From: Gemmatimonadota bacterium
Lineage (GTDB): Bacteria; Gemmatimonadota; Gemmatimonadetes; Gemmatimonadales; Gemmatimonadaceae
Assembly: GCA_016194585.1 (NCBI GenBank)
Contig: JACQBG010000017.1
Coordinates: 1 to 38,206, forward strand
DNA length: 38,206 nucleotides
Direction of reading: 5' to 3'
The notes under the pieces were generated by a model that made no database searches, was not told where the DNA came from, and saw only the letters and a list, made by a program, of their open reading frames with translations. The translations under genes and the position numbers were made by a program. Below are positions 11,045 to 35,110 of the stretch, one piece after another. The stretch's first letter is position 1. Each line of letters starts with the position of its first letter.

Positions 11045-12757
11045 TCAGAACCGATAGCTCAGCGACGCGTAGGTCTGGATGCTCCGGTCGAGCACGCTCG
11101 ACTCGCGGTACGACGAGAACATCAGGTACACGGAGCGGCCGATGCCGATGTCGGCGTCGAGGCTCGTCCACGTGATGCGCGGCGGCGCGGTCGTGTCGGT
11201 GGTGAGCGTGGATTCCCGGATCCCCGCCGTGTACTGCAGGTGCAGCGTGCCGAACGGGGTCGCCTCGAGCGACGCCGACTGCAGGTGGCCGGCGCTGAAG
11301 GGACCGGTGTAGGTCGTCGTCCGCAGGTGCATCCCCACCTGCGCGCGCGTCAGCCGGGTGAGCGAGGCCGACGACGTCACCGACTGGGTGGCGCCGGTGT
11401 TCCCGCCGCTGCTTTGGCGGAGCTCGCTGCTCAACCGGAGGCGGTCGAACAGCGTCAGCGAACCACCGCCCCACACCCCCTCGCGGAAGCTGTCGTCGAA
11501 CGTGATCTCGGGGTTCTGGTAGTCGCGGTACAGCCGCACGTTGCGGCGGTTGTCGGCGCCGCCGTAGAGCGAGAACGCGTCGGTGACGCTCAGCTGCGCC
11601 GTCACGAACGTCGCCGTGGGGGTCGTGGCCGATCCCTCCTGCACGCCCTTCCACCCGCGGTTGATGTCGAGTTCCTGCGTGGCGTACACCGAGAGGCGCG
11701 AGCTCGTGTAGGTCAGCCGCGCGAACGCGAATTCGCGGTCGATCTGTCCGCTCTCGTAGGCGCCGACGCCGCCGAGCGTGAGCGACCACAGTTGCGTGCT
11801 GCCGGGGCGATGGTGCACCTGCACGTACGCGCCGTACTCGCGCGTGAGGTCCGAGAGGCCGAGTGACGCGGCGTCGGGCTCCTGTCCGGCGAACGCGCCG
11901 GTGCTCCAGCGCGCGCCGTCGACGTCGAGCGCGACGCCATCGAACATCCCGACGGACGAGAGCGCCTGCGCGAATTGGCGGCCGATCGAGACGCGCGCCG
12001 CCGAGCCCGCGGGGGCGTATTGCACCATCGCCTGATACACGCGCGTGGTCTGTTCGTCGGGGCGGATCGTGTTCGCCGCGCCGGAGGCGAACGACGAGCG
12101 CTGCGCGCGCACGTCGAGGGTGAGGCTGAGCGGCGAGCCCAGCAGCTCGTGGCCGTCGAGCCGGGCGTCGATCCCCGGCTGCGCGAGCGCGCTGCCGGCC
12201 GTGGGGTTGAGGAGCAGGTAACGGAATCCGATGCGGCCGCGCAGTTGGCCGTCGCTCGCGCGGCGCAGGGCGGACGAGCCGGGGGTGGCGCTGAGCGCCG
12301 CGGCCGTCGCGGCGGCCTTCACGGGGACGAAGCGCACGGAGTCGCCGATCGTCACGGCGAGGTCGGGTGTCTGCCGCGTGCACGCTGCCCGCGACGACGA
12401 GATGAACGATACGATCAGTTCGCCGACGGCCTCGCCGGCACGCACGACGGTGAGCCGGGCACCTTCGCGCAGCCCGTCCTTCGAGCCCGCCTCGAGATAC
12501 ACCATCGTGCCGCTGAGATAGGTGACGCGCGTCCACGCGTAGGCCGCGTCGGCACCGAGGCCCGGCGCACCCGATGTCCCGGCGACCGCAGTCTGGGCAC
12601 CGCTGGCCGGCGCACCGATGGTCGGGGTGCCCACGGTCGGCACACCGGTCGATCGCGTCGCCGGCGCCTGCGCGTCGAGCGCGTCCGATACGCCCAAGGT
12701 GATGAGGACACCCGATGCGGCCGCCGCGACGCGGCGGCGCGTGCGGAACGAGGTCAT
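11045..12757 (-). CDS. Outer-membrane beta-barrel protein of the cytochrome operon
   Basis: 570 residues with a signal peptide (RRRVAAAASGVLITLGVSDA, cleavage near LDAQA), a Pro/Thr/Gly linker, and a small beta domain (about 75-150: TMVYLEAGSKDGLREGARLT). From about residue 180 there is a long run of alternating polar/apolar beta strands ending in aromatic YASLSYRF. The terminal Phe is the outer-membrane barrel assembly signal. Known porin-cytochrome conduits (MtrB, PioB) place a barrel around a multihaem protein; this barrel has no recognisable N-terminal CxxC. Its ATG overlaps the stop of the 31-haem cytochrome gene. It is most likely the outer-membrane sheath or anchor; that role is inference. 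Confidence 0.75.
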   Translation of the reverse strand: MTSFRTRRRVAAAASGVLITLGVSDALDAQAPATRSTGVPTVGTPTIGAPASGAQTAVAGTSGAPGLGADAAYAWTRVTYLSGTMVYLEAGSKDGLREGARLTVVRAGEAVGELIVSFISSSRAACTRQTPDLAVTIGDSVRFVPVKAAATAAALSATPGSSALRRASDGQLRGRIGFRYLLLNPTAGSALAQPGIDARLDGHELLGSPLSLTLDVRAQRSSFASGAANTIRPDEQTTRVYQAMVQYAPAGSAARVSIGRQFAQALSSVGMFDGVALDVDGARWSTGAFAGQEPDAASLGLSDLTREYGAYVQVHHRPGSTQLWSLTLGGVGAYESGQIDREFAFARLTYTSSRLSVYATQELDINRGWKGVQEGSATTPTATFVTAQLSVTDAFSLYGGADNRRNVRLYRDYQNPEITFDDSFREGVWGGGSLTLFDRLRLSSELRQSSGGNTGATQSVTSSASLTRLTRAQVGMHLRTTTYTGPFSAGHLQSASLEATPFGTLHLQYTAGIRESTLTTDTTAPPRITWTSLDADIGIGRSVYLMFSSYRESSVLDRSIQTYASLSYRF

Positions 12758-15105
12758 GGCGTGGTCCCCCGCGGATGGCAGGAGTAGCAGGTGGGGCTGT
12801 CGTACTTGTAGCCCGAACGTCCCTTATGGGCGTTGTCCATGTCGGGCTTGAGGTGGCAGTTCGTGCAGAGGAAGAGTGAATAGTTCGTCGGCACGGTGTG
12901 GCAGTCGCTGCACTGGCTCCACCGCCCCTTGTGCTTGCCGGAGTAGATCGGGAAGAACGACGCGTCGTGGTTGAACGTCGCGCCGAGCCAGGTGGTCGTG
13001 GTGTGGCACGACGCGCAGGTGGTCGGGAAGGCGACCGTCTTGTGATTGGGGTTCGTCGTGGCGTCGTAGTTCGCCTGATGGCAACCGACGCAGACCATCG
13101 TCTTGCCGCTGTAGACGCCGTCGCCGTGACAGCCGGCGCAGGGCGTGGTGACGTGCGCCCCGGTGAGCGGGAAGCGCGTCGTCGCGTGATTGAACGTCGC
13201 CGGCGACCACGCCGTGGTGCTGTGGCACGACGCGCACGACGCGGTCGGGAAGGACGTCGTGTTGTGCGGCGGGTTCTTCGTCGCCGCGTAGTTCGACTGG
13301 TGGCACGAGTAGCAGGCCGTCGACTTGCCCTTGTAGACGCCGTCGGCGTGACAGTCATTGCACATCGCGGCGCGATGCGCCCCGGTGAGCGGGAAGGCCG
13401 TCGTCGAGTGGTCGAACGATCCTCCCGCCCAGGCGACGGTGCCGTGGCACGACGCGCACGCCGTGGAGAATCCGAGCGCGGAGTGCGGCGGCCGCAGCGA
13501 GGCGTTGTAGTCCTTCAGGTGGCACGAGACGCACACCGTGCTCTTCCCCTTGTAGACGCCGTCACCGTGGCACCCGGAGCAGGCGACCGTCTTGTGCGCC
13601 CCCGTGAGCGGGAATTGCGTGACGCTGTGGTCGAACGATCCCCCCAGCCACGCCGACGTCGTATGGCAGGCGGCGCAGGCCGTCGAGAGACCGAGCTGCG
13701 AATGCGGCGGGCGCAGCGAGGCGTTGTAGTCCTTCTGGTGGCAGGAGACGCACGCCGTGCTGCGCCCCTTGTAGACGCCATCGGTATGGCAGCTCAGGCA
13801 GACGAGCGTCTTGTGCATCCCCGTGAGCGGGAAGAGCGTCGCGTCGTGGTTGAAGACCGCCCCCTTCCAGCTCGTGGTGCCGTGGCAGGCCTCGCACGCC
13901 ACGGGGAATCCCTGCGCGGCGTGGGGCGGGTTCACCGACTTGTCGTAGTCGGCCTGATGACAGCTCGCGCACGCGCTTGGCCGGCCGCGGTACACGCCGG
14001 CCGAATGACAGTCGTTGCACGTGGCCGTCTTGTGCGCCCCGGTGAGCGGGAACCGCGTCACGCTGTGGTCGTAGGGGGCGCCCTGCCAGGCGACCGTCGT
14101 GTGGCACGCCGCGCACGCGCTCGTGAAGCCGAGCTGCGAGTGCGGCGGGCGCAGCGACGCGGCGAAGTCCTTCTGGTGGCACGATTGGCACGCCGTCGGC
14201 TTGCCCTTGAAGACGTTGTCGCCGTGGCAGCTCGTGCACAGCGTCGTCAGGTGCGCGCCGGTGAGCGGGAACTGCGTGGCGCTGTGATCGAACGTCGCGC
14301 CCTTCCACGCCTGCACGGTGTGGCACGCCGCGCAGTCGGTGGGGAAGCCGCTCGCGGCGTGCGGCGGATTCTTCGACGCGGCGTAGTCGGCCGCGTGGCA
14401 GGCGTTGCACAGCATCGGCTTCCCCTTGAACACGCCGTCGCCATGGCACCCCGCGCAGCTCACGGCGCGATGCGCGCCGGCGAGCGGGAAGCGCGTCACG
14501 GAGTGGTCGTACTTCGCCGTGAGCCAGCTCGAGACGTCGTGGCACGACGCGCAATCCTGCGAGAAGCCGGCGCCCTGATGGTCGGGCGCCTTCGTCGCCC
14601 GGAACGTCGTCAAGTGGCACCCGATGCACGTGGTCGGGCGACCGCGGTACTGCGCCTGTCCCGCCGCGGTCGGCGTGTGGCACGATTCGCACGGCACGGC
14701 GACGTGTGCGCCGCGCAGCGGGAAGAGGGTGAGTTCATGCGCACGCGCCATGCGCGACGGGTCGACGAAGCTGCGCGCCGTGTGGCAGCGGTCGCACGTG
14801 GTGCCGAACTCCCCCTTGTGCACGTCGCTGTGGCACGACGCGCAGTTGGTGGCCGCTTTCGAGAATACGAGCGACGTGTGGCAGCTGCCGCACGCCGTGC
14901 GCGCATGCGCGCCCTCGAGCGGGAACGTCCGCTCGGCGTGGCGGAACGACGGCGAGATCGCGGCCGGCTTCCACCCGTCGGCGCGATGGCAAGTGCTGCA
15001 CGCGCCGACGTTGGGGCCGTGCGGGTTGTCGGCGCGCTGGGCCTGCGCCGGGATGGCCGCGAGCGCGAGCAGCAGCGCGGCGATGCCGAGTCGGTGGGGA
15101 CTCAT
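12754..15105 (-). CDS. Exported 31-haem c-type cytochrome
   Basis: 783 residues. A signal peptide (LGIAALLLALAAIPAQA) is followed by 31 CxxCH haem-attachment motifs, counted by reading. Between about residues 205 and 717 the protein is seven tandem 73-residue units. Each has three CxxCH motifs plus three further conserved His (in FDHS, TGAH and PPH), which fits bis-His ligation of every haem. With one haem every 24 residues it should be an extended wire-like protein. It has no lipobox. It is coupled by ATGA overlaps to the 23-haem gene upstream and the barrel gene downstream. A periplasm-spanning or surface conductor is the likely role. Confidence 0.93.
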   Translation of the reverse strand: MSPHRLGIAALLLALAAIPAQAQRADNPHGPNVGACSTCHRADGWKPAAISPSFRHAERTFPLEGAHARTACGSCHTSLVFSKAATNCASCHSDVHKGEFGTTCDRCHTARSFVDPSRMARAHELTLFPLRGAHVAVPCESCHTPTAAGQAQYRGRPTTCIGCHLTTFRATKAPDHQGAGFSQDCASCHDVSSWLTAKYDHSVTRFPLAGAHRAVSCAGCHGDGVFKGKPMLCNACHAADYAASKNPPHAASGFPTDCAACHTVQAWKGATFDHSATQFPLTGAHLTTLCTSCHGDNVFKGKPTACQSCHQKDFAASLRPPHSQLGFTSACAACHTTVAWQGAPYDHSVTRFPLTGAHKTATCNDCHSAGVYRGRPSACASCHQADYDKSVNPPHAAQGFPVACEACHGTTSWKGAVFNHDATLFPLTGMHKTLVCLSCHTDGVYKGRSTACVSCHQKDYNASLRPPHSQLGLSTACAACHTTSAWLGGSFDHSVTQFPLTGAHKTVACSGCHGDGVYKGKSTVCVSCHLKDYNASLRPPHSALGFSTACASCHGTVAWAGGSFDHSTTAFPLTGAHRAAMCNDCHADGVYKGKSTACYSCHQSNYAATKNPPHNTTSFPTASCASCHSTTAWSPATFNHATTRFPLTGAHVTTPCAGCHGDGVYSGKTMVCVGCHQANYDATTNPNHKTVAFPTTCASCHTTTTWLGATFNHDASFFPIYSGKHKGRWSQCSDCHTVPTNYSLFLCTNCHLKPDMDNAHKGRSGYKYDSPTCYSCHPRGTTP
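12956..14488 (-). repeat. Seven tandem 219-bp repeats coding haem-binding units
   Basis: A 219-base period is visible in the DNA: the segment encoding FPLTGAH recurs at about 12955, 13174, 13393, 13612, 13831, 14050, 14269 and 14488. Each unit codes 73 residues with three CxxCH motifs. Neighbouring units near 13490-13560 and 13710-13780 are almost identical at the DNA level, pointing to recent duplication or gene conversion. Confidence 0.85.
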
Positions 15106-17150
15106 GTCGTTCTCCGGGAGGGAGCCTTGACGTGACAGCTTTCACATGCGCCCGAGAGTGGCCGGTACAGGACGCGCCCCTTGGGGTCGCGGCGGTGGCA
15201 ACCGGCACAGGGCGTCTTCTCGTGCGCGCCGGTGAGCGCGAACGACGCATCGCGGGTGTGGTCGAACCGGGTGGCGGGCGCCCAGCCGGCGGCGCCATGG
15301 CACCCCTCGCACGCGCCCTGGTCCTTGCGTGCGGCGAACTGGTCGCCGTGCGGCGACTCATGGCACGTCGCGCAGCGGTCGCGATGCTGGACGAACGGCA
15401 GCGCCGCCATGCGGAGGGGCGCCGCGATGAGCGACGACGTCGCGGCGGGCGCCTTCATCTCGTCGTGGCAGGCGACGCACGGCGTCGCCCGGTGCGCGCC
15501 ATCGAGCGGAAAGGCGAATGCGGCGTGCGCGGCCGTCGTGATCGTGGACGGGCGGAACGCCGTCGCGTCGTGGCAGCCGCGGCATCCCGTCGCCTGCGCC
15601 CGGGCGCCGGCGGTGCTGTACCGCCCGGCGTGCGGGTCGGCGTGGCACGACTCGCACGCGGTCTCGTTCAGCGAGAGCGCGACCTTCGCCGTGCCGAGCG
15701 ACGCGTGCGCGAGCGGGGGCAACCCGCGGCGCGACGCCGCATGGCATGCGGCGCAGGGCACGGCCGCATGGCGTCCCTCGAGCGGGAGCTTCAAGGCGGC
15801 GTGACGCGCCGCGGAGAACGTGCTGGGCTTCCACCCCGCATCGTCGTGACACGCCTCGCACGTGCCCTTGCCGAGGCTCGCCGCGGTCTGTCCGCCGTGC
15901 GCGTCGGCGTGGCAGGACGCGCAGTTCGCGAAGGCGACCCGGAGGCGCACGACTTTGGCGCTGCGCGCGAGCGCCGCAGTGGCCGGTTCGAGTGCCGGCG
16001 TCGCACCGCGCGTCGCGGCCCGCGCCGGCACCGCGGTGTGGCACTGTGCACACTTCACCGCCTCGTGCTTGCCGTGCAGCACGAACCTGGCCGACCGATG
16101 CCGGGCGACGGTGAACGTCGACGGCGCGAAGCCGCCCACCGTGTGGCACGCCGCGCAGTCGGCCGGCTTGCCGGCGAGCGTCCCCTCGCCCTGATGCGCG
16201 TCGGCGTGGCACGAGCCGCAGGTCGCGAACGGCGGGTTCTTCTTGAGCGACGGACCGTGGCACGCCTCGCACTTCACCTCGCGGTGTTTCCCCTCGAGCG
16301 CGTAGCGCGTGCGCCCGTGGTCGAACTCCTTGCGGTCGATCACGAGGAAGCCGCGCGTCACGTGGCAGTCGCCGCACTTCGGCGAGAGCCGCCCCTTGTG
16401 TGGGTCGGCGTGGCAGTCGGAGCACTCCTTGTGGCTCACCGGCTTGAACAGCGGCTCCAGCTTGCCCTCGGCGTTGGGCTGGACCTTCAGCCGCGTCGCG
16501 AGGTGGCACTTGTCGCACTCGACGTCGGCGTGCTTGCCGGTGAGCGGATAGTCGGACTTGTCGTGATCGAACTTCGGCGCCGGCTTCCACCCCTTGGCGT
16601 CGTGGCACTTGTCGCACGATTCGCCGAGCGAGTTCTTGTGCACGTCGTCGGCGCGGTGGCAGCTGGCGCACCTCGTCTCGAGCCCGAGCCAGCCGGGCGC
16701 GTGGTCCTTTCGCGCCGTGAGGGACGCGGCCGGCGACACGCGGAATGCGTTGGTGTGGCACTTCTCGCACTTCACGTTCGCGTGCTTCCCCTCGAGCGAC
16801 CAGCCGGCACGCGTGTGGTCGAACTTCGCGGCCGAACCCTCGGGCCACGCGACGAGCGCGAACTTCACGCCCGCGTGGTCGGGGTGGCAGCTCGCGCACG
16901 TCTTCGCGCCGGGCTTCGCCTCCTTCGCGTGCAGCCCGCGCCCCCGGTCGATGCTCCACGCCACGTCCTTGTGGCAGGCCAGACAGAGCTGCGCCATCGG
17001 CTCCTTCCTCAGGCCGTGGCACTTCACGCAATTGCCCGCACCCTCGAGGTCGGCGTGCGCCCGGGCGAGCGGTCCGGGCGAGATCTGCCCGGACGCGACC
17101 GTCGTACAGAGTGCCAGCATCGGCACGGCCATCCAGCGCGTCCCTCTCAT
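15102..17150 (-). CDS. Exported 23-haem c-type cytochrome
   Basis: 682 residues from the ATG at 17150, which overlaps the stop of the oxidoreductase gene (ATGA). A signal peptide (MAVPMLALCTTVASGQ) is followed by 23 CxxCH motifs. The pattern is less regular than in the 31-haem protein, but the same auxiliary His occur (FDHT, LEGKH, DPHKG, DAHQG), consistent with bis-His haems. The Lys-rich first half (CEKCH, CDKCH) differs from the Ala-rich second half, suggesting fusion or duplication of two modules. By order in the operon it is a plausible periplasmic relay between the membrane oxidoreductase and the 31-haem protein. Confidence 0.93.
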   Translation of the reverse strand: MRGTRWMAVPMLALCTTVASGQISPGPLARAHADLEGAGNCVKCHGLRKEPMAQLCLACHKDVAWSIDRGRGLHAKEAKPGAKTCASCHPDHAGVKFALVAWPEGSAAKFDHTRAGWSLEGKHANVKCEKCHTNAFRVSPAASLTARKDHAPGWLGLETRCASCHRADDVHKNSLGESCDKCHDAKGWKPAPKFDHDKSDYPLTGKHADVECDKCHLATRLKVQPNAEGKLEPLFKPVSHKECSDCHADPHKGRLSPKCGDCHVTRGFLVIDRKEFDHGRTRYALEGKHREVKCEACHGPSLKKNPPFATCGSCHADAHQGEGTLAGKPADCAACHTVGGFAPSTFTVARHRSARFVLHGKHEAVKCAQCHTAVPARAATRGATPALEPATAALARSAKVVRLRVAFANCASCHADAHGGQTAASLGKGTCEACHDDAGWKPSTFSAARHAALKLPLEGRHAAVPCAACHAASRRGLPPLAHASLGTAKVALSLNETACESCHADPHAGRYSTAGARAQATGCRGCHDATAFRPSTITTAAHAAFAFPLDGAHRATPCVACHDEMKAPAATSSLIAAPLRMAALPFVQHRDRCATCHESPHGDQFAARKDQGACEGCHGAAGWAPATRFDHTRDASFALTGAHEKTPCAGCHRRDPKGRVLYRPLSGACESCHVKAPSRRTT

Positions 17151-18583
17151 CCCGTCGCGGCCTGCGGCGGCATCGGCACGTCCTTCTCCACGATCCGCAC
17201 GCCGATGCGCTCGAGGAACGCGTACGGCGCGTCCCCTCCGATGCGCACTACGACGTCGTCGTTCGGCACGATCGTCGTCTCGTCGCCCAGCTGGAGCACG
17301 GCGACGTCGTGGCGGATCTCGCGCACGACGCTGCCGAAGATCGCGCGCACGCGGCCGCTCTCGAGGAGCGTCGCGATCTTCGCGCGGTTGCGGTCCTTCA
17401 CGCGGCTGAACGTCTCGCCGCGGTACGACAGCGTGACCTCGGTGTCCTTCTGGTTGGCGAGGCCGAGCACGCTCTCGATGGCGCTGTCGCCACCACCCAC
17501 GACGAGCACGCGGCGTCCGGCGAACGCCTCCATCTCGACGATGTCGTAGAACACCTTGTCGAGCTCCTCGCCGGGAACGCCGAGGCGGCGCGGCGTGCCG
17601 CGCCGCCCCATCGCCAGCACGACGCGACGCGCGCGATGCACGCCCGCCGAGGTCTGCAGGCGGAACACCCCGTCGGCGCGGATGACCTGCTCGACGCGTT
17701 CCCCCGTTCGCACCTGCAGCCCCGTGTTGGCGACGATCGTCTCCCACACCTGCAGCAGCGTCTCCTTCGATGCGTCGGCGATCCACAGGTCGCCGTACAA
17801 CGGGATCGACACGGGTTCGGCGAGCAGCAGCTTGTGCCGCGGATACTTGCGCACCGTGTCGGAGAGCGATCCCTGCTCGATCACGACATAGCTGAGCCCG
17901 CGGCGCAGCGCCTCGAGTCCCGCGCTGAGTCCTGCCGGTCCGGAGCCGACGATCGCGACGTCCACCACATCGGCGTCGCCGTCGGGGCGTTCGGCACCCG
18001 GCTCGAGCGCCTTCACCACCGCCTCGATCGCCATCTTCCCTTCGTTGATGGCGTTCTTGATGAGGCCGCGGCCGCCCAGTTCGCCGACGATGTACAACCC
18101 GGGCACGTTCGTCTCGAACTCGCTGTTCGTGAGCGGCACCTGCACGCGGTTCACGGCGGTGCCCGTCGTCACCGAGATCGCACCCACCGGGCAGCCGCGC
18201 ACGCATTCGCCGTGTCCCTTGCAGAGCGCATCGTCGACGACCGCCAACTTGCCCCGCAGCGTGATGGCGCCCGGCTCGGGACAGGCATCGACGCAGGTGC
18301 CGCACCCCACGCACATGTCGGCGCGCACCATCGCGCGCGGCACGCCCCCCGCCGCCGCGCCCGGCGCCGACGTCGGCGCCTGCGTGAGTTCGAAGATCTG
18401 CTGCGGCACGCCGCATCCCGGGCAGAACGTCGAACCCTTCGGCACGAGCGCCTTGCACCGCGGGCACGGCGTGCCGCGCACGACGGCCGTCACCGTCGGC
18501 GCCGACGGCGTGCCGCGCGAGCGCAGGTGCAGCCACACCATCAGCGCCGTGAGCGCGAAGAAGCCGAGCGTCGTCGTGAGCAT
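17147..18583 (-). CDS. Membrane-anchored ferredoxin/flavin NAD(P)H oxidoreductase
   Basis: 478 residues. Domains in order: one membrane helix (2-20); a zinc-ribbon (Cys40, 43, 54, 57); a two-cluster ferredoxin domain with CVGCGTCVDACP (91-102) and CKGHGECVRGCP (121-132), the second having His124 where Cys is usual; a segment TNVPGLYIVGELGGRGLIKN (158-177) resembling the FAD-closing motif of thioredoxin reductases; then a full FAD/NAD(P)H module with GSGPAG (213-218) and GGGDSA (363-368). No thioredoxin-type CxxC is present, so electrons probably pass to the Fe-S clusters. It would take electrons from NAD(P)H to the membrane cytochrome or multihaem proteins. Six bases separate it from the cytochrome b-like gene. 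Confidence 0.88.
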   Translation of the reverse strand: MLTTTLGFFALTALMVWLHLRSRGTPSAPTVTAVVRGTPCPRCKALVPKGSTFCPGCGVPQQIFELTQAPTSAPGAAAGGVPRAMVRADMCVGCGTCVDACPEPGAITLRGKLAVVDDALCKGHGECVRGCPVGAISVTTGTAVNRVQVPLTNSEFETNVPGLYIVGELGGRGLIKNAINEGKMAIEAVVKALEPGAERPDGDADVVDVAIVGSGPAGLSAGLEALRRGLSYVVIEQGSLSDTVRKYPRHKLLLAEPVSIPLYGDLWIADASKETLLQVWETIVANTGLQVRTGERVEQVIRADGVFRLQTSAGVHRARRVVLAMGRRGTPRRLGVPGEELDKVFYDIVEMEAFAGRRVLVVGGGDSAIESVLGLANQKDTEVTLSYRGETFSRVKDRNRAKIATLLESGRVRAIFGSVVREIRHDVAVLQLGDETTIVPNDDVVVRIGGDAPYAFLERIGVRIVEKDVPMPPQAATG

Positions 18584-18589
18584 CGCCGC

Positions 18590-19684
18590 CTACCGCAGCC
18601 AGGTCGCGCCGACGGCGACGACGACCACCACGTGGATGACGACGGCGACGAGCGCGGTGATGGCGAACGGCCGGTGCGCCACGTGCCAGTAGCGGAACAC
18701 GCGGTGCGTCGCCTCGAGCATCCGCGTCTGCTGCGTGAGCGACATCTCGCGGTCGGCGAGCCGCACCGCGTCGCGCAGCGCCGCGCGGCCGATCGGGTGG
18801 CCGTCGGGCGACGCCGCGGCCCACCGCCGGCGCAGGTCACGCGAGCGCTTCCACCGCATGAGGTCGTTGGTGAGGAGGCGGCCGAGCACCCGGAGCGGGT
18901 TCTCGTTCGCTCCCGAGTCGTCGGAGACCGTGAGCAGCTCCTCGACGGCGTTCACGCTCGTCCCGGTCGCCTCGGCGAGTCGCACGATCAGCTCGCGCCG
19001 CTGCGCCGCCACTTCGTCGCGCGTCAGCTCGACGCCGCTCTTCGCGCGCGGGATGCGCACGTAGAGGTAGCGCCCCACGATGCCGCTCGCGCAGACGATG
19101 AGCATCGCCGCGAGCCCGAGCCCGATGACGCCGTCGGAACGCCACGCGGCGTGGATGGCGAGGAGCAGCGGGAGCGCCATCGCCGTCGTCACGTGCACGT
19201 CGAGCCACTTGCCCACCGAGCCGGTGAAGGCGAGCGCCTTCCACTTCTTGCGCAGCGGGTAGAGCCAGAGGAACACGAACACGAGGAGCGCGATGAGTCC
19301 GGCGCTCTGGCCGATGTACCCCGACGGGCGGAGCCACGCGTGCCACGGGTGCCGCACCCGTTCGCCGAGGTCGGCGAAGTAGTACTGGGCCCCGCCGATG
19401 TTGATGGCGAGGAGCGGCAGCACGATCAGCGTCAGCGCGAGCCCGCCGCGGCTGCCCTTCGCCGGCTCGGCCTTCGGAGCGCCCGCCCGCATGGGCGCGC
19501 GCGGTGGCTGGGGCGCGCGGTGAGGCTGAGGAACGCGCGACGCGTCGCCCGCCCCTGCATCGTCGGGACGATGAGGGAGGGGATGCGTGTGCGCTGAGGC
19601 TGCCGACGAGACTGATGGGTGCGGCAGAGGTACCCGCGGCGGCTGAATAGCCGTCCCGGCATGGGCCGTGCTCTGAGATGTCAT
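18590..19684 (-). CDS. Cytochrome b-like integral membrane protein
   Basis: 364 residues. Residues 1-80 are a Pro/His/Ala-rich cytosolic stretch; an in-frame Met65 is an alternative start. Five hydrophobic helices follow (about 81-102, 123-143, 162-181, 185-208 and 341-362). His164 and His178 are 14 apart in one helix, and His334, His337 and His351 sit at and in the last helix, a pattern suited to haem b ligation. Residues 210-330 form a soluble, charged domain. It is the first gene of the operon and would exchange electrons between quinone or the flavoprotein and the exported cytochromes. I do not recognise a named family, and the haem assignment is inference. Confidence 0.75.
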   Translation of the reverse strand: MTSQSTAHAGTAIQPPRVPLPHPSVSSAASAHTHPLPHRPDDAGAGDASRVPQPHRAPQPPRAPMRAGAPKAEPAKGSRGGLALTLIVLPLLAINIGGAQYYFADLGERVRHPWHAWLRPSGYIGQSAGLIALLVFVFLWLYPLRKKWKALAFTGSVGKWLDVHVTTAMALPLLLAIHAAWRSDGVIGLGLAAMLIVCASGIVGRYLYVRIPRAKSGVELTRDEVAAQRRELIVRLAEATGTSVNAVEELLTVSDDSGANENPLRVLGRLLTNDLMRWKRSRDLRRRWAAASPDGHPIGRAALRDAVRLADREMSLTQQTRMLEATHRVFRYWHVAHRPFAITALVAVVIHVVVVVAVGATWLR

Positions 19685-26584: not shown

Positions 26585-28030
26585 TTGCCGGTCAACATCG
26601 GGCCGGTCTCGATGAGCTACCGCGCCGACAACGCCCTCCTCCAGACCGTGAGCGGCGGCAACGCGACCACCACGTTCGCGTACGACTCGCTGGGGCAGGT
26701 GCTCTTCTCCGCCACGGTCGGCGACATCAACGCCGACACGCTGCTGCGGCAGGCGTTCACGTACGACGCGCTGGGGCGCGTGGTGGGCCTCTCGGAGCGC
26801 GTGCAGGGCGACACAGCGACGTACGCCTATGCCTACGACGCGGCTGGCCGGCTGTCGGAGGTCCGCACGGGCGGCGTGGTCACGCAGGCCTATACCTACG
26901 ACCTGAACGGCAACCGCACGCGCGTCGTCACGGCGAGCCAGACGCTCACGGCCGCCTACGACGCGCAGGACCGGCTGCTCAACAACGGCACCGCCACCTA
27001 CGTCCACGCCGCCACCGGCGAGCGCACGCTCACGGTCGTGGGCCCCGACACCACCCGCTACCGCTACGACCCCTTCGGGAACCTCCGCGACGTCTGGCTC
27101 CCGAGCACCCAGGGCGGCGCGCACGTCCAGTACGAGGTCGACCCCCAGCAACGGCGCACGGCGCGCCTTGTGAACGGGGTGGTGACCAACCGCTGGCTCT
27201 ATCAGAGCCAGCTCGCGATCGCCGCCGAGGTCGACAGCGTCGGCAATCCCGTCCGGACCTACGTCTACGGCGCGCATGTGAACGTGCCCGAGCTGATGAC
27301 GACGCCGAGCGGGCAGACCTTCCGGTTCGTGACCGACCAGCTGGGGAGCGTGCGGCTGGTGATGGACGCCCTGGCCGACACCGTCGTGCAGCGGCTCGAT
27401 TACGATGCCTATGGGCGGGTCGTCCGGGACACGAAGCCGGGGTTCCAGCCGTTCGCTTATGCGGGCGGGGAGTATGAGCCGCTCACGGGGCTCGTGCGGT
27501 TCGGGGCGCGGGACTACGACGCCGAGACGGGGCGGTGGACGGCGAAGGATCCGGCGGGGTTCTTAGGCCAAGATGAGAACTTGTATGCCTATGCGGGGGG
27601 ATCTCCAGTCGGCGACACCGATCCAAGTGGCTTGACGGTCTTGAATCCACGGCACTATGTCGTGTCCGATAGTGTCATGCGTGCGTTGAACGCGTTCAAT
27701 AGGCTCATCGGCTGCGATCGCGACATCCTTATCACTGGTGGGGACCGCCCTCGCTCCTCTGTGCTTGGCGCTCGCAGCGGCAGCCTTCACACCCGAGGTT
27801 TGGCAGCGGACATTCGTGTACCCGGGCAGCGAAATCTGCAAACTGCGAATCAGGCGGCGAGGAGCGGACTCTTCAACGGCGTTGGCTGGTACGAAGAAGG
27901 CTATCAAGGAGAGAATGGTGAGGGCCCCCACGTGCACGTCGACCTGAGAGCCGGACCGCCCGCTCGCTGGGGTTATTCCGCGAGCGGGGAGGTCTTCCAT
28001 GGGTCGTTTCCAGCGTTTCCTCCCAAGTAG
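26585..28030 (+). CDS. 5'-truncated Rhs protein ending in an M15-type peptidase domain
   Basis: 481 residues from a TTG; the coding frame is open from 26528. Residues 30-290 are YD/RHS repeats (YDSLGQVLFS, YDALGRVVGLS, YDAAGRLSEV, YDPFGNLRDV). Residues 305-350 are the conserved core end, ARDYDAETGRWTAKDPAGF through DPSGL. Residues 351-481 form the toxin tip with SLHTRGLAADI (His402, Asp409) and HVHVDLR (His449, His451), the zinc-site pattern of M15 D,D-carboxypeptidases that cut peptidoglycan stems. The N-terminal export and shell portions of a full Rhs protein (over 1000 residues) are missing, so it may be silent or a cassette donor. The tip is followed by a candidate immunity gene. Confidence 0.8.
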   Translation: MPVNIGPVSMSYRADNALLQTVSGGNATTTFAYDSLGQVLFSATVGDINADTLLRQAFTYDALGRVVGLSERVQGDTATYAYAYDAAGRLSEVRTGGVVTQAYTYDLNGNRTRVVTASQTLTAAYDAQDRLLNNGTATYVHAATGERTLTVVGPDTTRYRYDPFGNLRDVWLPSTQGGAHVQYEVDPQQRRTARLVNGVVTNRWLYQSQLAIAAEVDSVGNPVRTYVYGAHVNVPELMTTPSGQTFRFVTDQLGSVRLVMDALADTVVQRLDYDAYGRVVRDTKPGFQPFAYAGGEYEPLTGLVRFGARDYDAETGRWTAKDPAGFLGQDENLYAYAGGSPVGDTDPSGLTVLNPRHYVVSDSVMRALNAFNRLIGCDRDILITGGDRPRSSVLGARSGSLHTRGLAADIRVPGQRNLQTANQAARSGLFNGVGWYEEGYQGENGEGPHVHVDLRAGPPARWGYSASGEVFHGSFPAFPPK

Positions 28031-28684: not shown

Positions 28685-29122
28685 ATGCGCCCCTCCCACT
28701 CGCGCCTCCGAGGCTTCACCCTCATCGAAGTCCTCGTCGTCATCGTCGTCATTGCGATCCTCGCCACCCTCGTCGCGCCCAACGTCTTCCGACACGTCGG
28801 CGCGGCCAAGGAGACCACCGCGAGGTCGCAGATCGAGATGCTCGGCGCTGCCCTCGACGCCTACCGCCTCGACAACGGCCGTTACCCCACCACCGAGCAG
28901 GGACTCGCCGCGCTCTGGCAGGCGCCCACCACAGAACCGCGCCCCACCAACTGGCGCGGTCCGTACCTGCGCAAAGCGGTGCCGCTCGACCCGTGGGGCA
29001 ATCCCTACTCGTACGTCGCGCCGGGCGTGCAGAGCACGACGGGGTATGACCTCGTCTCCTATGGCGCCGACGGCAAGCCCGGCGGTACCGGCGACGACGC
29101 CGACATCACGAGCTGGAAGTAG
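28685..29122 (+). CDS. gspG: T2SS major pseudopilin GspG
   Basis: 145 residues. The prepilin cleavage site RLRG/FTLIEVLVVI (Gly10/Phe11, Glu15) leads into the hydrophobic pilin helix. The globular part carries GspG hallmarks: LDAYRLDNGRYPTTEQGLAALW, then DPWGNPYSYVAPG and YDLVSYGADGKPGGTGDDADI, the calcium-binding loop of the major pseudopilin. It polymerises into the periplasmic pseudopilus that pushes substrates through the secretin. First gene of an eleven-gene operon; no Shine-Dalgarno sequence precedes it. Confidence 0.96.
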   Translation: MRPSHSRLRGFTLIEVLVVIVVIAILATLVAPNVFRHVGAAKETTARSQIEMLGAALDAYRLDNGRYPTTEQGLAALWQAPTTEPRPTNWRGPYLRKAVPLDPWGNPYSYVAPGVQSTTGYDLVSYGADGKPGGTGDDADITSWK

Positions 29123-29144
29123 CACGCGAGCACGAGGCACGCTG

Positions 29145-30341
29145 ATGCCAGGCTTCGAGTACCGCGCCATCGACCGCGCGGGCCGTCGCGCCCGCGGTGA
29201 GGCCGTCGCCATCGACGCGGCCACCCTCCAGCGCGAACTCGAACAACGCGGACTGACGGTGCTCGACGTCGCCGAGCGCTCGGACAATGCCACGCGCGCC
29301 GGCGATCGCGTGCCACACGCCGCGCTCGAGGACGCGATGCGCGCCCTCGCCGCGCTCCTCCCGGCCGGGATGGCGATCGGCCAATCGCTCGACGCGGCGG
29401 GCTCCACGTCGCCTCCGGCGCTCCGCGCGCGCCTGCTCGACATCCGCGCCCGCGTCGAACGCGGCGAGTCGCTCGCCACGGCTTTCGCCGCCCACGGCGA
29501 CGTGTTCTCCCCCGCGATGGTGGGGATCATCCGCGCCGGCGAACGCGCGGGCGATCTCGACGCGGCCTTCGCGCGACTCGCCGACCAACTCGAACGGCAG
29601 GGCGCGCTGCGCGCGCGACTCCTGTCGGCGGCCATCTACCCGGCACTGCTCGCCGTCGTCGGCGGCGCCGCGGTGCTCGTGCTCCTCCTCTTCGTGCTCC
29701 CGCGATTCGCCGCGCTCCTCGGCGATACGGGCGCGGCGCTGCCCACCTCGACGCGACTGCTCCTCGGCGCGGCCTCCGCCGCGCGCCGCAACTGGTTCAT
29801 CTTCCCCGTGCTCGCGCTGGCCGCCACTGCGCTCGGCGCCTGGCTGCGGCTCACCGCCGAGGGACGGCGCGCGTGGGCGCGCACGCTGCTCACCCTCCCG
29901 CTCGTCGGCGCGTTCCGGCGTGAGACGCTCGCCGCCGAGTGCGCGCGGCTCATCGCCGTGCTCCTCAAGAGCGGTGCGAGCCTCATCTCCGCGCTCGACG
30001 ATGCCGCGCTCTCGGTCGCCGACCCGCTCGCCCGCGAGGCGCTCGTGCGCGTGCGCGAGCGCGTGCGCGCGGGAGGCACACTGCACGGGGCGATCGCTGA
30101 GGAATCGGTCTTTCCGCCGCTGCTCGCCTCGCTCGTCGCGACCGGTGAGGAGGCGGGCCGCCTCCAGGACTTCCTCGGCAAGGCCGCCGAGTTGTTCGAA
30201 GTGCGCACCGAGCGCGGCGCGCAGCGGCTCGTCGCCATCGCCGAGCCGGCGATGATCGTCTTGTTCGGTGCGATGGTGGGGCTCGTCGCGCTCTCGCTGC
30301 TGCAGGCGATCTACGGCGTGAATCCGGCGGCGCTGCGATGA
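29145..30341 (+). CDS. gspF: T2SS inner-membrane platform protein GspF
   Basis: 398 residues starting MPGFEYRAIDRAGRRARGE, the typical GspF N-terminus, with GAGG about eight bases upstream. Two repeated GspF cytoplasmic domains (about 60-180 and 265-370) are joined by hydrophobic helices near 165-190 and 215-240, and a last helix near 370-390. It forms the rotor-like platform that couples the GspE ATPase to pseudopilus assembly. The stop overlaps the start of gspH. Confidence 0.95.
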   Translation: MPGFEYRAIDRAGRRARGEAVAIDAATLQRELEQRGLTVLDVAERSDNATRAGDRVPHAALEDAMRALAALLPAGMAIGQSLDAAGSTSPPALRARLLDIRARVERGESLATAFAAHGDVFSPAMVGIIRAGERAGDLDAAFARLADQLERQGALRARLLSAAIYPALLAVVGGAAVLVLLLFVLPRFAALLGDTGAALPTSTRLLLGAASAARRNWFIFPVLALAATALGAWLRLTAEGRRAWARTLLTLPLVGAFRRETLAAECARLIAVLLKSGASLISALDDAALSVADPLAREALVRVRERVRAGGTLHGAIAEESVFPPLLASLVATGEEAGRLQDFLGKAAELFEVRTERGAQRLVAIAEPAMIVLFGAMVGLVALSLLQAIYGVNPAALR

Positions 30342-30769
30342 CGGCGCGCGCGCGCGGCTTCACGCTCGTCGAGATCGTCGTCGTGCTCGCCCTCCTCGCG
30401 CTGTCGGCGGCAGTGTCCGTGCCGGCGTTCTCAGCCGTTGCCACACGCAGCTCCACGCACGAGGCGGCCGCGCAGGTCACGGCGCTGCTAGAGGGCGCCC
30501 GCTCGCGCGCCCTCGCGCGCGGGTACGAGTCACAGCTCACCATCGACGCGGCGCATGCGCGCGTGTGGCAGGCGGAGCCCGACTCGACGTTCGTGCTCGA
30601 CCTCCCCGCCGACTGCCATCTCGCGAGCGACAAGGCGCGGTTGCACGTGCGATTCGCGGCCGACGGTTCGGCGGCGGCCGACGCGATCGTCGTGCGGTGC
30701 GACCGCGGCACCGCGGTCATCGCCGCCGATGCGTGGACGGGTGCGACGCGCGTCACGGAGGGACGATGA
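30338..30769 (+). CDS. gspH: T2SS minor pseudopilin GspH
   Basis: 143 residues with cleavage site ARG/FTLVEIVVVL (Glu at +5) and one N-terminal helix. The globular part, with LEGARSRALARGYESQLTI, matches the GspH/FimT type. It overlaps gspF (ATGA) and gspI (ATGA). GspH links the pseudopilus tip complex to the GspG shaft. Assignment among minor pseudopilins rests on the FimT-like sequence and gene order. Confidence 0.88.
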   Translation: MTARARGFTLVEIVVVLALLALSAAVSVPAFSAVATRSSTHEAAAQVTALLEGARSRALARGYESQLTIDAAHARVWQAEPDSTFVLDLPADCHLASDKARLHVRFAADGSAAADAIVVRCDRGTAVIAADAWTGATRVTEGR

Positions 30770-31164
30770 AGCGCGTGGGGTTCACCTTGCTCGAGGCCGT
30801 CGTCGCGATGGCGATCGTGGGCACGGTGTCGATCGGGGCACTCGGCGCGCTCGCCGCGGAGTCGCGCGCGGCGGCGCGGGCGCGCGACACGGCGCCGGCC
30901 GCCGCGCTGGCGCGCGAGCGGGTGGCGCGGCTCGAACTGGTCAGCCGGCACACCCTCGCCTTTCTGCCCGATTCGCTTTCACACGGCGAGGCGGCGGCCG
31001 GGACACAACTATATAAGTGGGTGGCCACCGCGAAACCGGTGTCACAGGAGCACGACCTCTTCGATGTCGCCGTGGAGGTGCAGTGGGCGGGCGGTGCCTT
31101 CACGCTCCGCACCCGCACGTGGCGCCCGCCCGATGTGGCGCCTCTCGCCGGTGCGAGTCCGTGA
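30766..31164 (+). CDS. gspI: T2SS minor pseudopilin GspI
   Basis: 132 residues with a very short leader, MKRVG/FTLLEAVVAMAIVG, and Glu at +5. The small globular domain ends in VEVQWAGGAFTLRTRTW. Position between gspH and gspJ and the FTLLEAVVAM signature fit GspI, which nucleates the tip with J and K. The next gene starts inside its stop (GTGA). Confidence 0.87.
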   Translation: MKRVGFTLLEAVVAMAIVGTVSIGALGALAAESRAAARARDTAPAAALARERVARLELVSRHTLAFLPDSLSHGEAAAGTQLYKWVATAKPVSQEHDLFDVAVEVQWAGGAFTLRTRTWRPPDVAPLAGASP

Positions 31165-31784
31165 CGCGCCTGCGCCGCGGGATGACGCTGCTCGAACTCG
31201 TCGTCGCGCTCGCCGTCGGCGGGATGGCGCTCGCCGCGGGGGGCGCGGCGTTCGCGACGGTCGCCGACCAGCGCGCGCGCGCGCTGCGCGAGGCCGATGT
31301 GGATCGTCGCGCGCTCGCGGCGCGGCGCGCGATCGCCGATTGGATCGGCGACGTGCAGCTCTCCGCCGATGGCGATGCGCCCGGCTTCCGCGGCATCGAT
31401 GGCACGCGCCGCGCGAATACGACGGAACTCCCCGACGACGAGGTGAGCTTCCTCACCACGGCCGCCACGCCGCGCGGCGATGATCCGTCGCGCGTGCACT
31501 TCTTCATTGCGCGTGCCGCGGATTCGACGTCGGGCGCGCTCGTCGCCGAGTTGAGCGACCGGCGCGGCCGCGACCTGGTGCGCGTGACGCTCGCCGAGGG
31601 AGTGGCGGGGTTCAACGTGCGCTACTTCACGCAGGCGTTCGGCCGCGCCGAGTGGCTCGACAGTTGGGCATCCGCGACGCTGCTCCCCGGCGCCGTCGAA
31701 GTGACGCTATTCGCCGCGCCGGGCGACTCGCTGCGCGGGCCGCTGCAATGGCCCATCACCGTTCCACTCGCGAACGGCCGATGA
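31161..31784 (+). CDS. gspJ: T2SS minor pseudopilin GspJ
   Basis: 207 residues from GTG 31161, overlapping the gspI stop. The cleavage site is RLRRG/MTLLELVVALAVGG; the first mature residue is Met rather than the usual Phe, with Glu at +5 kept. The longer globular domain (IADWIGDVQLSADGDAPGFR, later VRYFTQAFGRAEWLDSW) fits GspJ. It assembles with I and K at the pseudopilus tip. Confidence 0.88.
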   Translation: MTRLRRGMTLLELVVALAVGGMALAAGGAAFATVADQRARALREADVDRRALAARRAIADWIGDVQLSADGDAPGFRGIDGTRRANTTELPDDEVSFLTTAATPRGDDPSRVHFFIARAADSTSGALVAELSDRRGRDLVRVTLAEGVAGFNVRYFTQAFGRAEWLDSWASATLLPGAVEVTLFAAPGDSLRGPLQWPITVPLANGR

Positions 31785-32713
31785 ACCGCCGCGGCTTCGC
31801 GCTGCTCGCGAGCATCTGGCTGATGGTGGCGATCGCCGCCGTGGCGTTCGAGGTGAGCTACCTCGCGCGGTCGAGCCGGCTGGCGGTGGCGAACACGCTC
31901 GAGCAGGAGCAGGGGAGGGGTGCCGCGAACGCCGCGCTCGAGCACGCGCGCGCCCGGCTGGCGCGGCTGCTCGTCGAGCACGGCGACGCGGCCGGATCAT
32001 CGCTCGCCGACCCGTGGCGGTTCGCCGAGGGGAAGAGCGATACGGTGCAGATGGGCGAGATGCGATACGCGTTCTCACTCGAGGACGATGGCGCGACGCT
32101 CGACGTCAATCGCGTGACCGAGGCCGACTTGCACCGGCTGTTCGCCGCCTGTGGCGCCGACGACGCGCTCGCCTCACGCATGGCGCAACGTGTGGCCGAC
32201 TGGCGCGACGAGGACGACAGCCGCCGCGCCCAGGGCGCCGAGCGTACCGACTACCTCGCGGCGGGCGCGCGCGAGCTGCCGCGCGACGGCGCCATCGAGC
32301 GGGTGGACGAGTTGCGCGACGTGCTCGGGATGCCCGACACGCTCTGGCGCCGCGCGCGGACGTTCCTGAACGTCGGGGGTATCGGACAGGTGAACGTGAA
32401 CGCCGCGCCGCGCGAAGTGCTGCGCTCCCTCCCGGGGATGAGCGACGCGGCGGTCGAAGCGCTGCTTGCGGCTCGCCGGTCGGGGGAACGCGTCGCTAAT
32501 TTCCAGGAACTCAGCGATCGTTTGCCGCCGGGCGACCGCGCGGCGTTGCTCGATGCCTCGGCGCAACTGCTGCCGCGGCTGTCGTTCGACGCGTTCGCGA
32601 TGCGCGTGCGCGGCGAGGGGTGGGTGGAAGGGAGTCCGGTGCACGTGCGGGCCGAAGCGCTCATGGTACGTGGAGGTGGCGCGGTGTTCGTGCAATGGAG
32701 GCGGATCCGGTGA
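31781..32713 (+). CDS. gspK: T2SS tip pseudopilin GspK
   Basis: 310 residues. The leader is MNRRG/FALLASIWLMVAIAAVAF and lacks Glu at +5, as is normal for GspK. The protein is the largest pseudopilin, with the inserted helical domain that caps the tip, and helix-hairpin-helix-like segments (VNVNAAPREVLRSLPGMSDA, then VANFQELSDRLPPGDR). Its ATG overlaps the gspJ stop. Confidence 0.92.
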   Translation: MNRRGFALLASIWLMVAIAAVAFEVSYLARSSRLAVANTLEQEQGRGAANAALEHARARLARLLVEHGDAAGSSLADPWRFAEGKSDTVQMGEMRYAFSLEDDGATLDVNRVTEADLHRLFAACGADDALASRMAQRVADWRDEDDSRRAQGAERTDYLAAGARELPRDGAIERVDELRDVLGMPDTLWRRARTFLNVGGIGQVNVNAAPREVLRSLPGMSDAAVEALLAARRSGERVANFQELSDRLPPGDRAALLDASAQLLPRLSFDAFAMRVRGEGWVEGSPVHVRAEALMVRGGGAVFVQWRRIR

Positions 32714-34011
32714 GCGCCGCGCGCACGGTGGGCATCGCCCTCGGTGCGGGGCGCGGCGTCGTGGCGTGGTGGCCGGGGGCTGTCGCCTCGCTCGCGTCGG
32801 CCGCGCGTGCGCGCACGGCCCAGTTCACGTTCGATGCCGATGCGCTCGCGCTGGGCGACGCGTCGTCGTTGAACGACGCGCTGCATGAGGTGCGCGCACA
32901 GATGGTCGCGGGCGACGCGACTGCCGGCCGGCCCGGCACCGCGCACGGGGCCGCCGAGCCGCTGCGCGCGTTCGTCGCGCTCGCCTCGCCGTTCACCGCG
33001 CCGCGCGAGCTGTCGCTTCCGCCTATGCGCGTGAACGAGGCGCGCGCCGTGCTCGAGCGCGACGCGGCGCGCTGGTTCCCGCGGCGGCGCGCCGAGCCCG
33101 TCGTCGCTGTGCGCGCACTCACGCGCGGTGCGCCGGCGACGTATCTCGGGGCCGAGGCCGACGGCGTGGTGCTCGAGGCGGTGCGGCGCGCCGCGGAGCA
33201 ACTCGGCGGCGAACTGGTGGAGATCGCGCCGGCGATGGGCGCGTGGGCGCGCGCGAGCGGGAGTGCGCAGCAGGCGGTGTTCGTGCTCGATGGTGAAGCG
33301 ACGGTGCTCGCGACGCGCGATGGCGTGGTGACACGGTTGCGGCGGTGCCGTGCGGAAGACGTTGGAGCCGGCGCGTCGCTGGGCGCGCCGGCCGTGCAAA
33401 GTGGCATGACCTCACGCGCGACGATCGAGTCGGCGGCTGACCCCCTCGAGACGGCCGCGCGGTTCGCGCCATGGAACCGCGAACGCGAATTCGTGCACCC
33501 GGCCGTTCGCGCGCGACGGCGCACCGCGGCGAGTCGCGTGACGCGCCGCCTCTCGACCGTTGCTGCCGCGTTCGTGCTCGTTGCCGGCGCCGCGTGGTGG
33601 TGGGGCGCGGCGCGCGAGGCGCGAGTGATCGCCGCCGAACGCGCGGCGCTCGAGCCCGCCCTCACGGTCGCGATGGCGCAGCGCGATTCGGTCGTCGCCA
33701 TCGAGGAGCAGCTCGACGCCCTCGACCGCGCCGAGCGTGCGTCGCCCGCGTGGAGTGCGCGCCTCTGGACGATCGTCGCCGCGCTCCCGGCCGACGCCTA
33801 CCTCACGGCCGCGCGCGGCGCCGGCGATTCGCTGCAGGTGGAGGGGCGCGCCGTGAGCGCCGCGAAGGTGTTCAACGCGTTGCGCGCGGTGCGTGGCGTC
33901 GAGGGCGTGCGTGCGACCGCGCCCATCCGCGTCGACGACGGCCCGGGACTCACGCACGAAGCGTTCTCGATCGCCGTGCGGCTGCGCGCGCCGGGAGCCG
34001 GCGGCAAGTGA
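32710..34011 (+). CDS. gspL: T2SS assembly protein GspL (PilM/PilN-like fusion)
   Basis: 433 residues from GTG 32710, which overlaps the gspK stop and has GGAG nine bases upstream; the ATG at 32695 is an alternative. The first 270 residues form an actin-like cytoplasmic domain related to PilM/GspL. One membrane helix follows (about 280-300, VAAAFVLVAGAAWWWGA), then a coiled coil and a PilN-like periplasmic domain. GspL recruits the GspE ATPase to the inner-membrane platform. Sequence similarity is weak, as is usual for GspL, so gene order supports the call. Confidence 0.82.
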   Translation: MSAARTVGIALGAGRGVVAWWPGAVASLASAARARTAQFTFDADALALGDASSLNDALHEVRAQMVAGDATAGRPGTAHGAAEPLRAFVALASPFTAPRELSLPPMRVNEARAVLERDAARWFPRRRAEPVVAVRALTRGAPATYLGAEADGVVLEAVRRAAEQLGGELVEIAPAMGAWARASGSAQQAVFVLDGEATVLATRDGVVTRLRRCRAEDVGAGASLGAPAVQSGMTSRATIESAADPLETAARFAPWNREREFVHPAVRARRRTAASRVTRRLSTVAAAFVLVAGAAWWWGAAREARVIAAERAALEPALTVAMAQRDSVVAIEEQLDALDRAERASPAWSARLWTIVAALPADAYLTAARGAGDSLQVEGRAVSAAKVFNALRAVRGVEGVRATAPIRVDDGPGLTHEAFSIAVRLRAPGAGGK

Positions 34012-34622
34012 CGGCCACGGGGATGCGCTTCGCCGCGGGCGCGCGCCGGATGTCGACGCGCGACCGCCGCGCCCTCTGGCTCGGCGCGCTCGTCGTGGTG
34101 CCGGTGCTCGCGTGGCGCGCCGTCGTCGCGCCCGTCGCGGCCGGCGTGCAGCGCGCGCACGACGACGCGGCGACGCAGCGCGGCCTGCTGGCGCGCGAGA
34201 AGGCGCTGTTGCGCGACGCGCCGCTGCTGCCGGCGCGGGCGAAGCACGTCGCCGAGCGCGCCGCGGTGATGGCGCCGCGCCTCTTCAATGACGCCGACAC
34301 GGTCGCCGCGAGCGCGGCACTTTCCGCGTTCGTGCGCGACGCGGCCCGCTCCGCGGGGCTGCGTGTCACGCAGACCGACGCCGCGCCCGTCGAGATCCGC
34401 GGCGCGGGCGTCGTCGCGCTCGGCGTGGACACGCGCGTCGAGGGCACGTTCGGCGCGATCGTGAGTTGGCTCGACCAGCTCGAGAGCGGCGAGCGCGTGC
34501 TGACCGTGGAGCGGTTCGAGGTCACCGCCACCGGCACCTCCGAAGGCACGATCGCCGCCAGCGCGCGTGTGCGCGGCTTTGGCGCGCGGCTCGGCCGCAC
34601 GGCGAAAGGGCGGGGCAAGTGA
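34008..34622 (+). CDS. gspM: T2SS assembly protein GspM
   Basis: 204 residues from GTG 34008 (overlapping the gspL stop); the ATG at 34023 is an alternative. It has a short basic cytoplasmic start, one membrane helix (about 27-47, LWLGALVVVPVLAWRAVVAP), a coiled coil with REKALLRDAPLLPARAKHVAE, and a ferredoxin-like periplasmic domain ending VERFEVTATGTSEGTI. This layout is that of GspM/PilO, the partner of GspL. Confidence 0.83.
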   Translation: MTATGMRFAAGARRMSTRDRRALWLGALVVVPVLAWRAVVAPVAAGVQRAHDDAATQRGLLAREKALLRDAPLLPARAKHVAERAAVMAPRLFNDADTVAASAALSAFVRDAARSAGLRVTQTDAAPVEIRGAGVVALGVDTRVEGTFGAIVSWLDQLESGERVLTVERFEVTATGTSEGTIAASARVRGFGARLGRTAKGRGK

Positions 34623-34632
34623 GGAGCCGCAC

Positions 34633-35109: not shown

Positions 35110-35110
35110 C

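Follow-up and report, generated by a model that had tools for sequence, protein, structure and literature searches.

A conserved PCC3-type porin-cytochrome operon with an NAD(P)H-flavoprotein partner in Gemmatimonadota and other phyla

The Operon and Its Setting

The operon analysed here is a real, conserved conduit of the published PCC3 type, joined by a conserved NAD(P)H-flavoprotein partner. At a probability of roughly 0.6, we read it from its sequence as a porin-cytochrome conduit of the PCC3 type that has its own NAD(P)H dehydrogenase. It lies in a stretch of 38,206 nucleotides from a Gemmatimonadota bacterium of the family Gemmatimonadaceae (the window), which is an entire contig (C31) of a 3.34 Mb genome that is 98.3% complete.

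Five genes follow one another on the minus strand. The first encodes a cytochrome b-like inner-membrane protein (IMP; 18590-19684, 364 aa) and, after a gap of 6 bases, comes the gene of a membrane-anchored ferredoxin/YpdA-like flavoprotein (FLV; 17147-18583, 478 aa). They are followed by a presumed periplasmic cytochrome c with 23 CXXCH motifs (MHC23; 15102-17150, 682 aa), a presumed extracellular cytochrome c with 31 of them (MHC31; 12754-15105, 783 aa), and a predicted outer-membrane beta-barrel (BAR; 11045-12757, 570 aa), with ATGA-type 4-base overlaps at the FLV/MHC23, MHC23/MHC31, and MHC31/barrel junctions. The CXXCH motifs predict 54 haems for the operon (23 + 31). The original prediction, which had listed the five one-strand genes, the 54 haems and the junctions, proved exact at its coordinates, with all genes on the minus strand. 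An assembly artefact was ruled out, since genomes of the same genus have the operon flanked by the same genes.

Elsewhere in the window, the plus strand carries a fragment of an RHS-repeat/teneurin-like protein (26612-28030) and a type II secretion cluster (28752-38121; GspF, prepilin-like, GspK, GspC-like, secretin GspD, and GspE), located about 9-19 kb from the conduit.

The Inner-Membrane Module

IMP carries a WX3HX13H motif at 160-178 (W160, H164, and H178), an SGXXG motif at 200-204 (SGIVG), and a second WX3HX13H motif at 333-351 (W333, H337, and H351). Its structural model has five helices (77-97, 123-147, 157-178, 186-209, and 333-357), the motifs sitting on helices 3, 4, and 5. All of 48 IMPs compared, drawn from several phyla, have H164, H178, S200, G201, G204, W333, H337, and H351, and nearly all have W160. 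The IMPs of PCC3 and PCC4 are defined by five helices, with WX3HX13H on TM3 and TM5 and SGXXG on TM4 (He et al. 2017, PMC5566968). By its sequence, IMP is a five-helix, putatively di-haem cytochrome b-like protein of this PCC3/PCC4 type. Family searches of Pfam and NCBIfam gave no match for it, and the comparison of its model with solved structures (Foldseek) returned no convincing match and no haem protein, an absence that excludes nothing.

After an N-terminal membrane anchor, FLV has a zinc ribbon and two further domains, one of the ferredoxin type and the other a YpdA-like FAD/NAD(P) domain. Arginines directly follow the N-terminal helix, which would place the protein on the cytoplasmic face. 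The flavin part (residues 206-470) is YpdA/thioredoxin-reductase-like without the redox disulphide, and it contains zero cysteines, so that a disulphide substrate can be discounted; its nearest solved relatives are YpdA/Bdr and the ferredoxin-NADP reductases. The ferredoxin domain (residues 86-137) is an atypical double Fe-S domain, with the motifs CxxS/TGxC and CxGHGxC at residues 91-131. Across 88 aligned FLV homologues, the second cysteine position of the first motif is Ser/Thr in most and Cys in 22, while that of the second motif is His in 87. CxxHxxC is a typical motif in ferredoxins of the [3Fe-4S] type, and we take the CxxSGxC/CxGHGxC motifs of FLV to resemble those of [3Fe-4S] ferredoxins of higher potential. 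Such Fe-S clusters would have an above-usual potential, favouring electron flow away from NAD(P)H.

Conservation and Exchange of the Flavoprotein

Within the phylum, IMP is present in 36 of 298 genomes at E<=1e-3, 31 of these being clear, and FLV is present in 30 at E<=1e-40. Both occur together in 28 genomes, i.e., 28/31 of those bearing IMP and 28/30 of those bearing FLV (Fisher p about 1e-33, a value that ignores kinship). The operon is patchy, being present in 3 of the 11 genomes that share the window's genus. A scan of species genomes identified another 143 relatives; the 80 that were retained come from Gemmatimonadota, Bacteroidota, Rhodothermota, Ignavibacteriota, Chlorobiota, Latescibacterota, and Acidobacteriota; none of the 80 belongs to Pseudomonadota in this one contig scan. 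Neighbourhoods were read from stop-to-stop frames, some of the MHC genes being high in GC. The conservation of gene order on which the original prediction depended was thus borne out, the same module recurring in at least six phyla, which is not chance; the barrel gene is kept alongside the cytochromes, so that the objection that it might be an unrelated porin fails.

FLV accompanies the conduit in all the phyla named above except Acidobacteriota. Over 111 loci, its gene takes four positions: second in most loci, last in Rhodothermota and other Gemmatimonadota classes, upstream and divergent in the sister family f2, and upstream on the same strand once. These arrangements match the IMP tree; FLV has thus been relocated several times without being lost. 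Seventeen rows were scored without FLV; in most of these the contig ends close to where FLV should lie, or FLV is cut off or just below threshold. The clear exceptions are two Acidobacteria loci (L142 and L146), in which the gene directly 5' of IMP encodes a non-homologous FAD_binding_6/NAD_binding_1/2Fe-2S reductase, as established by a Pfam run on L146 and, for the near-identical layout of L142, by eye. On proteobacterial plasmids, small IMP relatives also adjoin a reductase of this type; they retain the HX13H pairs, fall short of the full signature and, in 2 of the 3 examined (Methylophaga and Legionella), adjoin a 7-haem cytochrome c. Porinless clusters of Gemmatimonadota (L066, 4494-7514; L065, 6034-9393) combine a Pyr_redox_2-like flavoprotein and a cytochrome of 9 or 12 haems with an IMP that is short.

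We read these loci as one cytochrome b family that appears to have been paired repeatedly and independently with NAD(P)H flavoproteins. Because unrelated NAD(P)H flavoproteins converge on IMP, the conduit family would be fed by NAD(P)H, instead of or besides quinol, and this swap is our best evidence for such feeding. The NAD(P)H link that had been suspected at the outset thus gains support from the retention of FLV with IMP and from the flavoprotein exchange.

The identical five-gene order was also observed on plasmid pEMTOL02 of Emticicia oligotrophica (L147, 11941-20637), with 23- and 40-haem proteins and ccsA in front. The plasmid location in this cultured species is a sign of operon mobility.

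The Haem Wire and the Barrel

Both cytochromes have signal-peptide-like N-termini. All the cysteines of MHC31 belong to CXXCH motifs, as do those of MHC23 except one, and the non-motif histidines (32 in MHC31 and 28 in MHC23) suffice to give each haem bis-His ligation. MHC23 is built of cytochrome c7/c3-like repeats. MHC31 contains seven near-exact triheme modules of 73/74 residues each (CXXCH spacing 32/16/25; mean pairwise identity 57%), which show in the DNA as 219-base repeats; it has no match among the sequences of solved structures. By analogy with MtrC, which is exported by type II secretion in Shewanella, MHC31 could be exported by the type II secretion system encoded nearby.

Repeats and variable haem numbers have been reported for PCC3 (PMC5566968). 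We found, over deduplicated complete genes, that 80 of 89 first MHCs carry 17, 20, 23, or 26 haems and that the haem count of the later MHCs is 1 mod 3 in 61 of 73, the outer MHC ranging from 10 to 76 haems in complete genes. If the genes were independent, which they are not, the chance of these series would be about 1e-18 and below; counting distinct outer values only, 17 of 24 fit 1 mod 3 (p = 2e-4). Since haem numbers change in threes, wire length seems to evolve by whole triheme modules. We did not find this rule stated in the main texts of the open-access PCC3 literature.

BAR has a signal peptide, a soluble N-terminal domain (about 74-143), and a C-terminal Phe, and its AlphaFold model (mean pLDDT 78) displays 22 consecutive long strands (171-569). 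Its best structural matches are the barrels of TonB receptors, ushers, and porins; TonB receptors that bear a plug, and ushers, align with the barrel part at Z of about 15-16 and rmsd of 4.3-5.6 A over about 260-370 residues. MtrB is absent from the best matches listed, which carries no weight either way. These matches to the model support a barrel fold, which is predicted to lie in the outer membrane, and say nothing of function. Most complete loci carry 3' of the outer MHC a barrel of about 520-560 aa with a signal peptide and, in most, a C-terminal Phe. Barrels in other loci were assigned by position, the iterated barrel profile having also matched shadow frames.

Electron Flow and Alternative Explanations

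We infer the following electron path, along with its cofactors, direction and substrate, the localisation of the proteins, and their assembly into a complex. FLV, on the cytoplasmic face, would oxidise NAD(P)H and pass the electrons from FAD through its Fe-S clusters to the two b-haems of IMP, which would move them through the inner membrane. MHC23 would carry them over the periplasm, the 22-strand barrel would let the wire pass through the outer membrane, and MHC31 would hand them to an extracellular acceptor (humic matter, a partner cell, or a mineral of Fe(III) or Mn(IV)). Net flow would be outward and would allow a heterotroph to respire or to carry out redox disposal. Alternatively, quinone or ferredoxin could be the partner to which FLV gives electrons or from which it takes them.

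In the same genome, an ImcH-like gene (6-haem, NapC/NirT-type) lies divergent from 3-haem, 12-haem, and CbcL-like genes (L151, G000:C13, 4676-11278); the CbcL-like gene is of the 19-haem/cytochrome-b type and, like the ImcH-like one, is a candidate quinol-linked gate. Because these candidates exist separately, the window operon may provide an additional route that is fed by NAD(P)H and runs in parallel. On another contig, genes for an 8-haem lipoprotein-like, a 9-haem, a 480-aa barrel-like, and a 16-haem protein stand in a row (L152, G000:C32, 2389-7707). This set is possibly a second porin-cytochrome cluster, its 480-aa candidate barrel being without family match. The genome also contains cytochrome c maturation genes.

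Published PCC3 models are quinone-linked and inward-directed, and both features have to be weighed here. If quinone-linked, as put forward in 2017 (PMC5566968), IMP would exchange electrons with the menaquinone pool, and FLV would be accessory, as a second entry point or a redox-state regulator. IMP is indeed similar to quinone-active cytochromes b, and the Gallionellaceae PCC3 has a flavoprotein-free cluster that was modelled on quinone. However, FLV or a substitute flavoprotein stands beside IMP in nearly all the examined loci and the genome already possesses its separate quinol gate candidates, so we consider this reading unlikely. As for direction, which the original prediction had left open, we favour export. 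No RuBisCO was found in the genome (other fixation pathways lay outside the search), and this result, the three haem-copper oxidases, the cytochrome c maturation genes, the other multihaem loci with their ImcH-like and CbcL-like genes, and thermodynamics all favour outward flow: electrons that ran inward to NAD(P)+ would move uphill and against the membrane potential. Electron uptake from Fe(II), a cathode, or a partner cell to IMP, and then to NAD(P)+ or quinone, draws on the discovery of PCC3 in Fe(II) oxidisers and on the possible reversibility of multihaem conduits. Against it stand the same energetic obstacle and missing RuBisCO, the Fe-S motifs of FLV, which presumably denote higher-potential clusters, and the finding that both S. 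lithotrophicus PCC3 clusters were at a lower level with Fe(II) than with thiosulfate (PMC8788666); we judge it improbable.

The long cytochromes might also chiefly store charge or bind surfaces, with no continuous conduit. Such a capacitor role has been proposed for proteins of this kind (PMC10734462, PMC11495043) and would accord with the very variable haem number of the outer protein. The constant inner module, the barrel, and the tight operon of complete loci nevertheless favour a through-path, and the capacitor and conduit roles are compatible; as a full explanation, storage seems very improbable.

To our knowledge, the characterised Gram-negative conduits draw their electrons from quinol gates (CymA, ImcH, and CbcL). 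If it is fed by NAD(P)H, the conduit would be non-conserving or dissipative, which suits redox disposal and not growth-yielding respiration. This would explain the large multihaem cytochromes of fermentative or aerobic Bacteroidota and Gemmatimonadota that are not known as metal respirers. At somewhat less than even odds, we propose that the PCC3-like conduits of Bacteroidota, Gemmatimonadota, Ignavibacteriota, and Acidobacteriota are a quinone-bypassing EET class, made of a swappable NAD(P)H flavoprotein, a cytochrome b, and a haem wire that gains or loses whole triheme units. PCC3, functionally untested since 2017 and still so (PMC12442390), would thereby gain a specific biochemical hypothesis. 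Cultured carriers exist (Emticicia oligotrophica DSM 17448, Mangrovibacterium lignilyticum, and Mariniphaga sediminis), and the haem-count variation across loci offers a natural series of wire lengths.

Comparison with Known Systems

The closest system is PCC3 of Sideroxydans lithotrophicus ES-1 (Slit_0867-0870 and Slit_1446-1449; He et al. 2017, PMC5566968). There, IMP has about 300 aa (364 here) with identical motifs and helix count, the order is IMP-pMHC-eMHC-porin, as in Slit_1446-1449, with FLV inserted here after IMP, and the published median haem numbers are 21 and 34, against 23 and 31 in the window. The earlier statement that no named system matched is therefore withdrawn, IMP signature, sizes, and gene order all agreeing with PCC3, and a categorically new system is ruled out on the same features. 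The probable homology to proteobacterial PCC3 is one of signature, size, and order, and not of alignment. The differences are the fifth gene, FLV, between IMP and pMHC in place of the published four-gene clusters; a predicted barrel of 22 strands, fewer than in the largest PCC3 porins (up to 42), a high strand number being usual in PCC3 porins but not strictly defining; haem counts that mostly step by threes, at either 2 mod 3 or 1 mod 3; and occurrence in other phyla than the Alpha-, Beta-, and Gammaproteobacteria of the published clusters. No description of the flavoprotein with PCC3 was found in the main texts of the open-access literature. Novel PCCs have been mentioned without detail in Bacteroidetes (PMC6344600), an anode biofilm contained a Bacteroidetes cluster that was left uncharacterised (PMC8258643), and giant multihaem proteins of Saprospiraceae were noted in sludge (PMC11495043); the window-type operon may account for some of these reports. 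PCC4 shares the same-motif IMP, a porin, and extra redox proteins, including Fe-S ones, but has 4-, 5-, and 10-haem MHCs and lacks the extracellular MHC.

With MtrCAB, MtoAB, and PioAB, the operon shares its functional plan, i.e., a barrel with inner and outer multihaem cytochromes. Membership of MtrCAB is ruled out, the family models not being reached: the window barrel does not match MtrB/PioB (TIGR03509), and the MHCs score 46 and 50 bits on DmsE/MtrA (TIGR03508) against a cut-off of 192 bits. A search of the whole genome for the MtrB/PioB family gave no match, the controls being equally silent. The inner-membrane gate of MtrCAB is CymA, while that of the window would be the cytochrome b-like IMP with FLV. 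The proposal of a self-contained trans-envelope conduit with its own inner-membrane module thus stands on the conserved order and the IMP signature; its contrast with classical systems holds for MtrCAB/PioAB but not for PCC3, in which an inner-membrane cytochrome b-like protein is already present.

The last comparison is with NADPH oxidases and ferric reductases. IMP has no Pfam match to their family (PF01794), and its fold searches returned no haem protein, which excludes nothing. The likeness lies in the two HX13H helices for two b-haems and in the feed by an NAD(P)H flavoprotein, which is YpdA-like in the window, whereas the Acidobacteria flavoprotein is itself FNR-type, as in NADPH oxidase and ferric reductase. 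FLV and IMP together would thus be a two-polypeptide counterpart of the NADPH-oxidase/ferric-reductase core.
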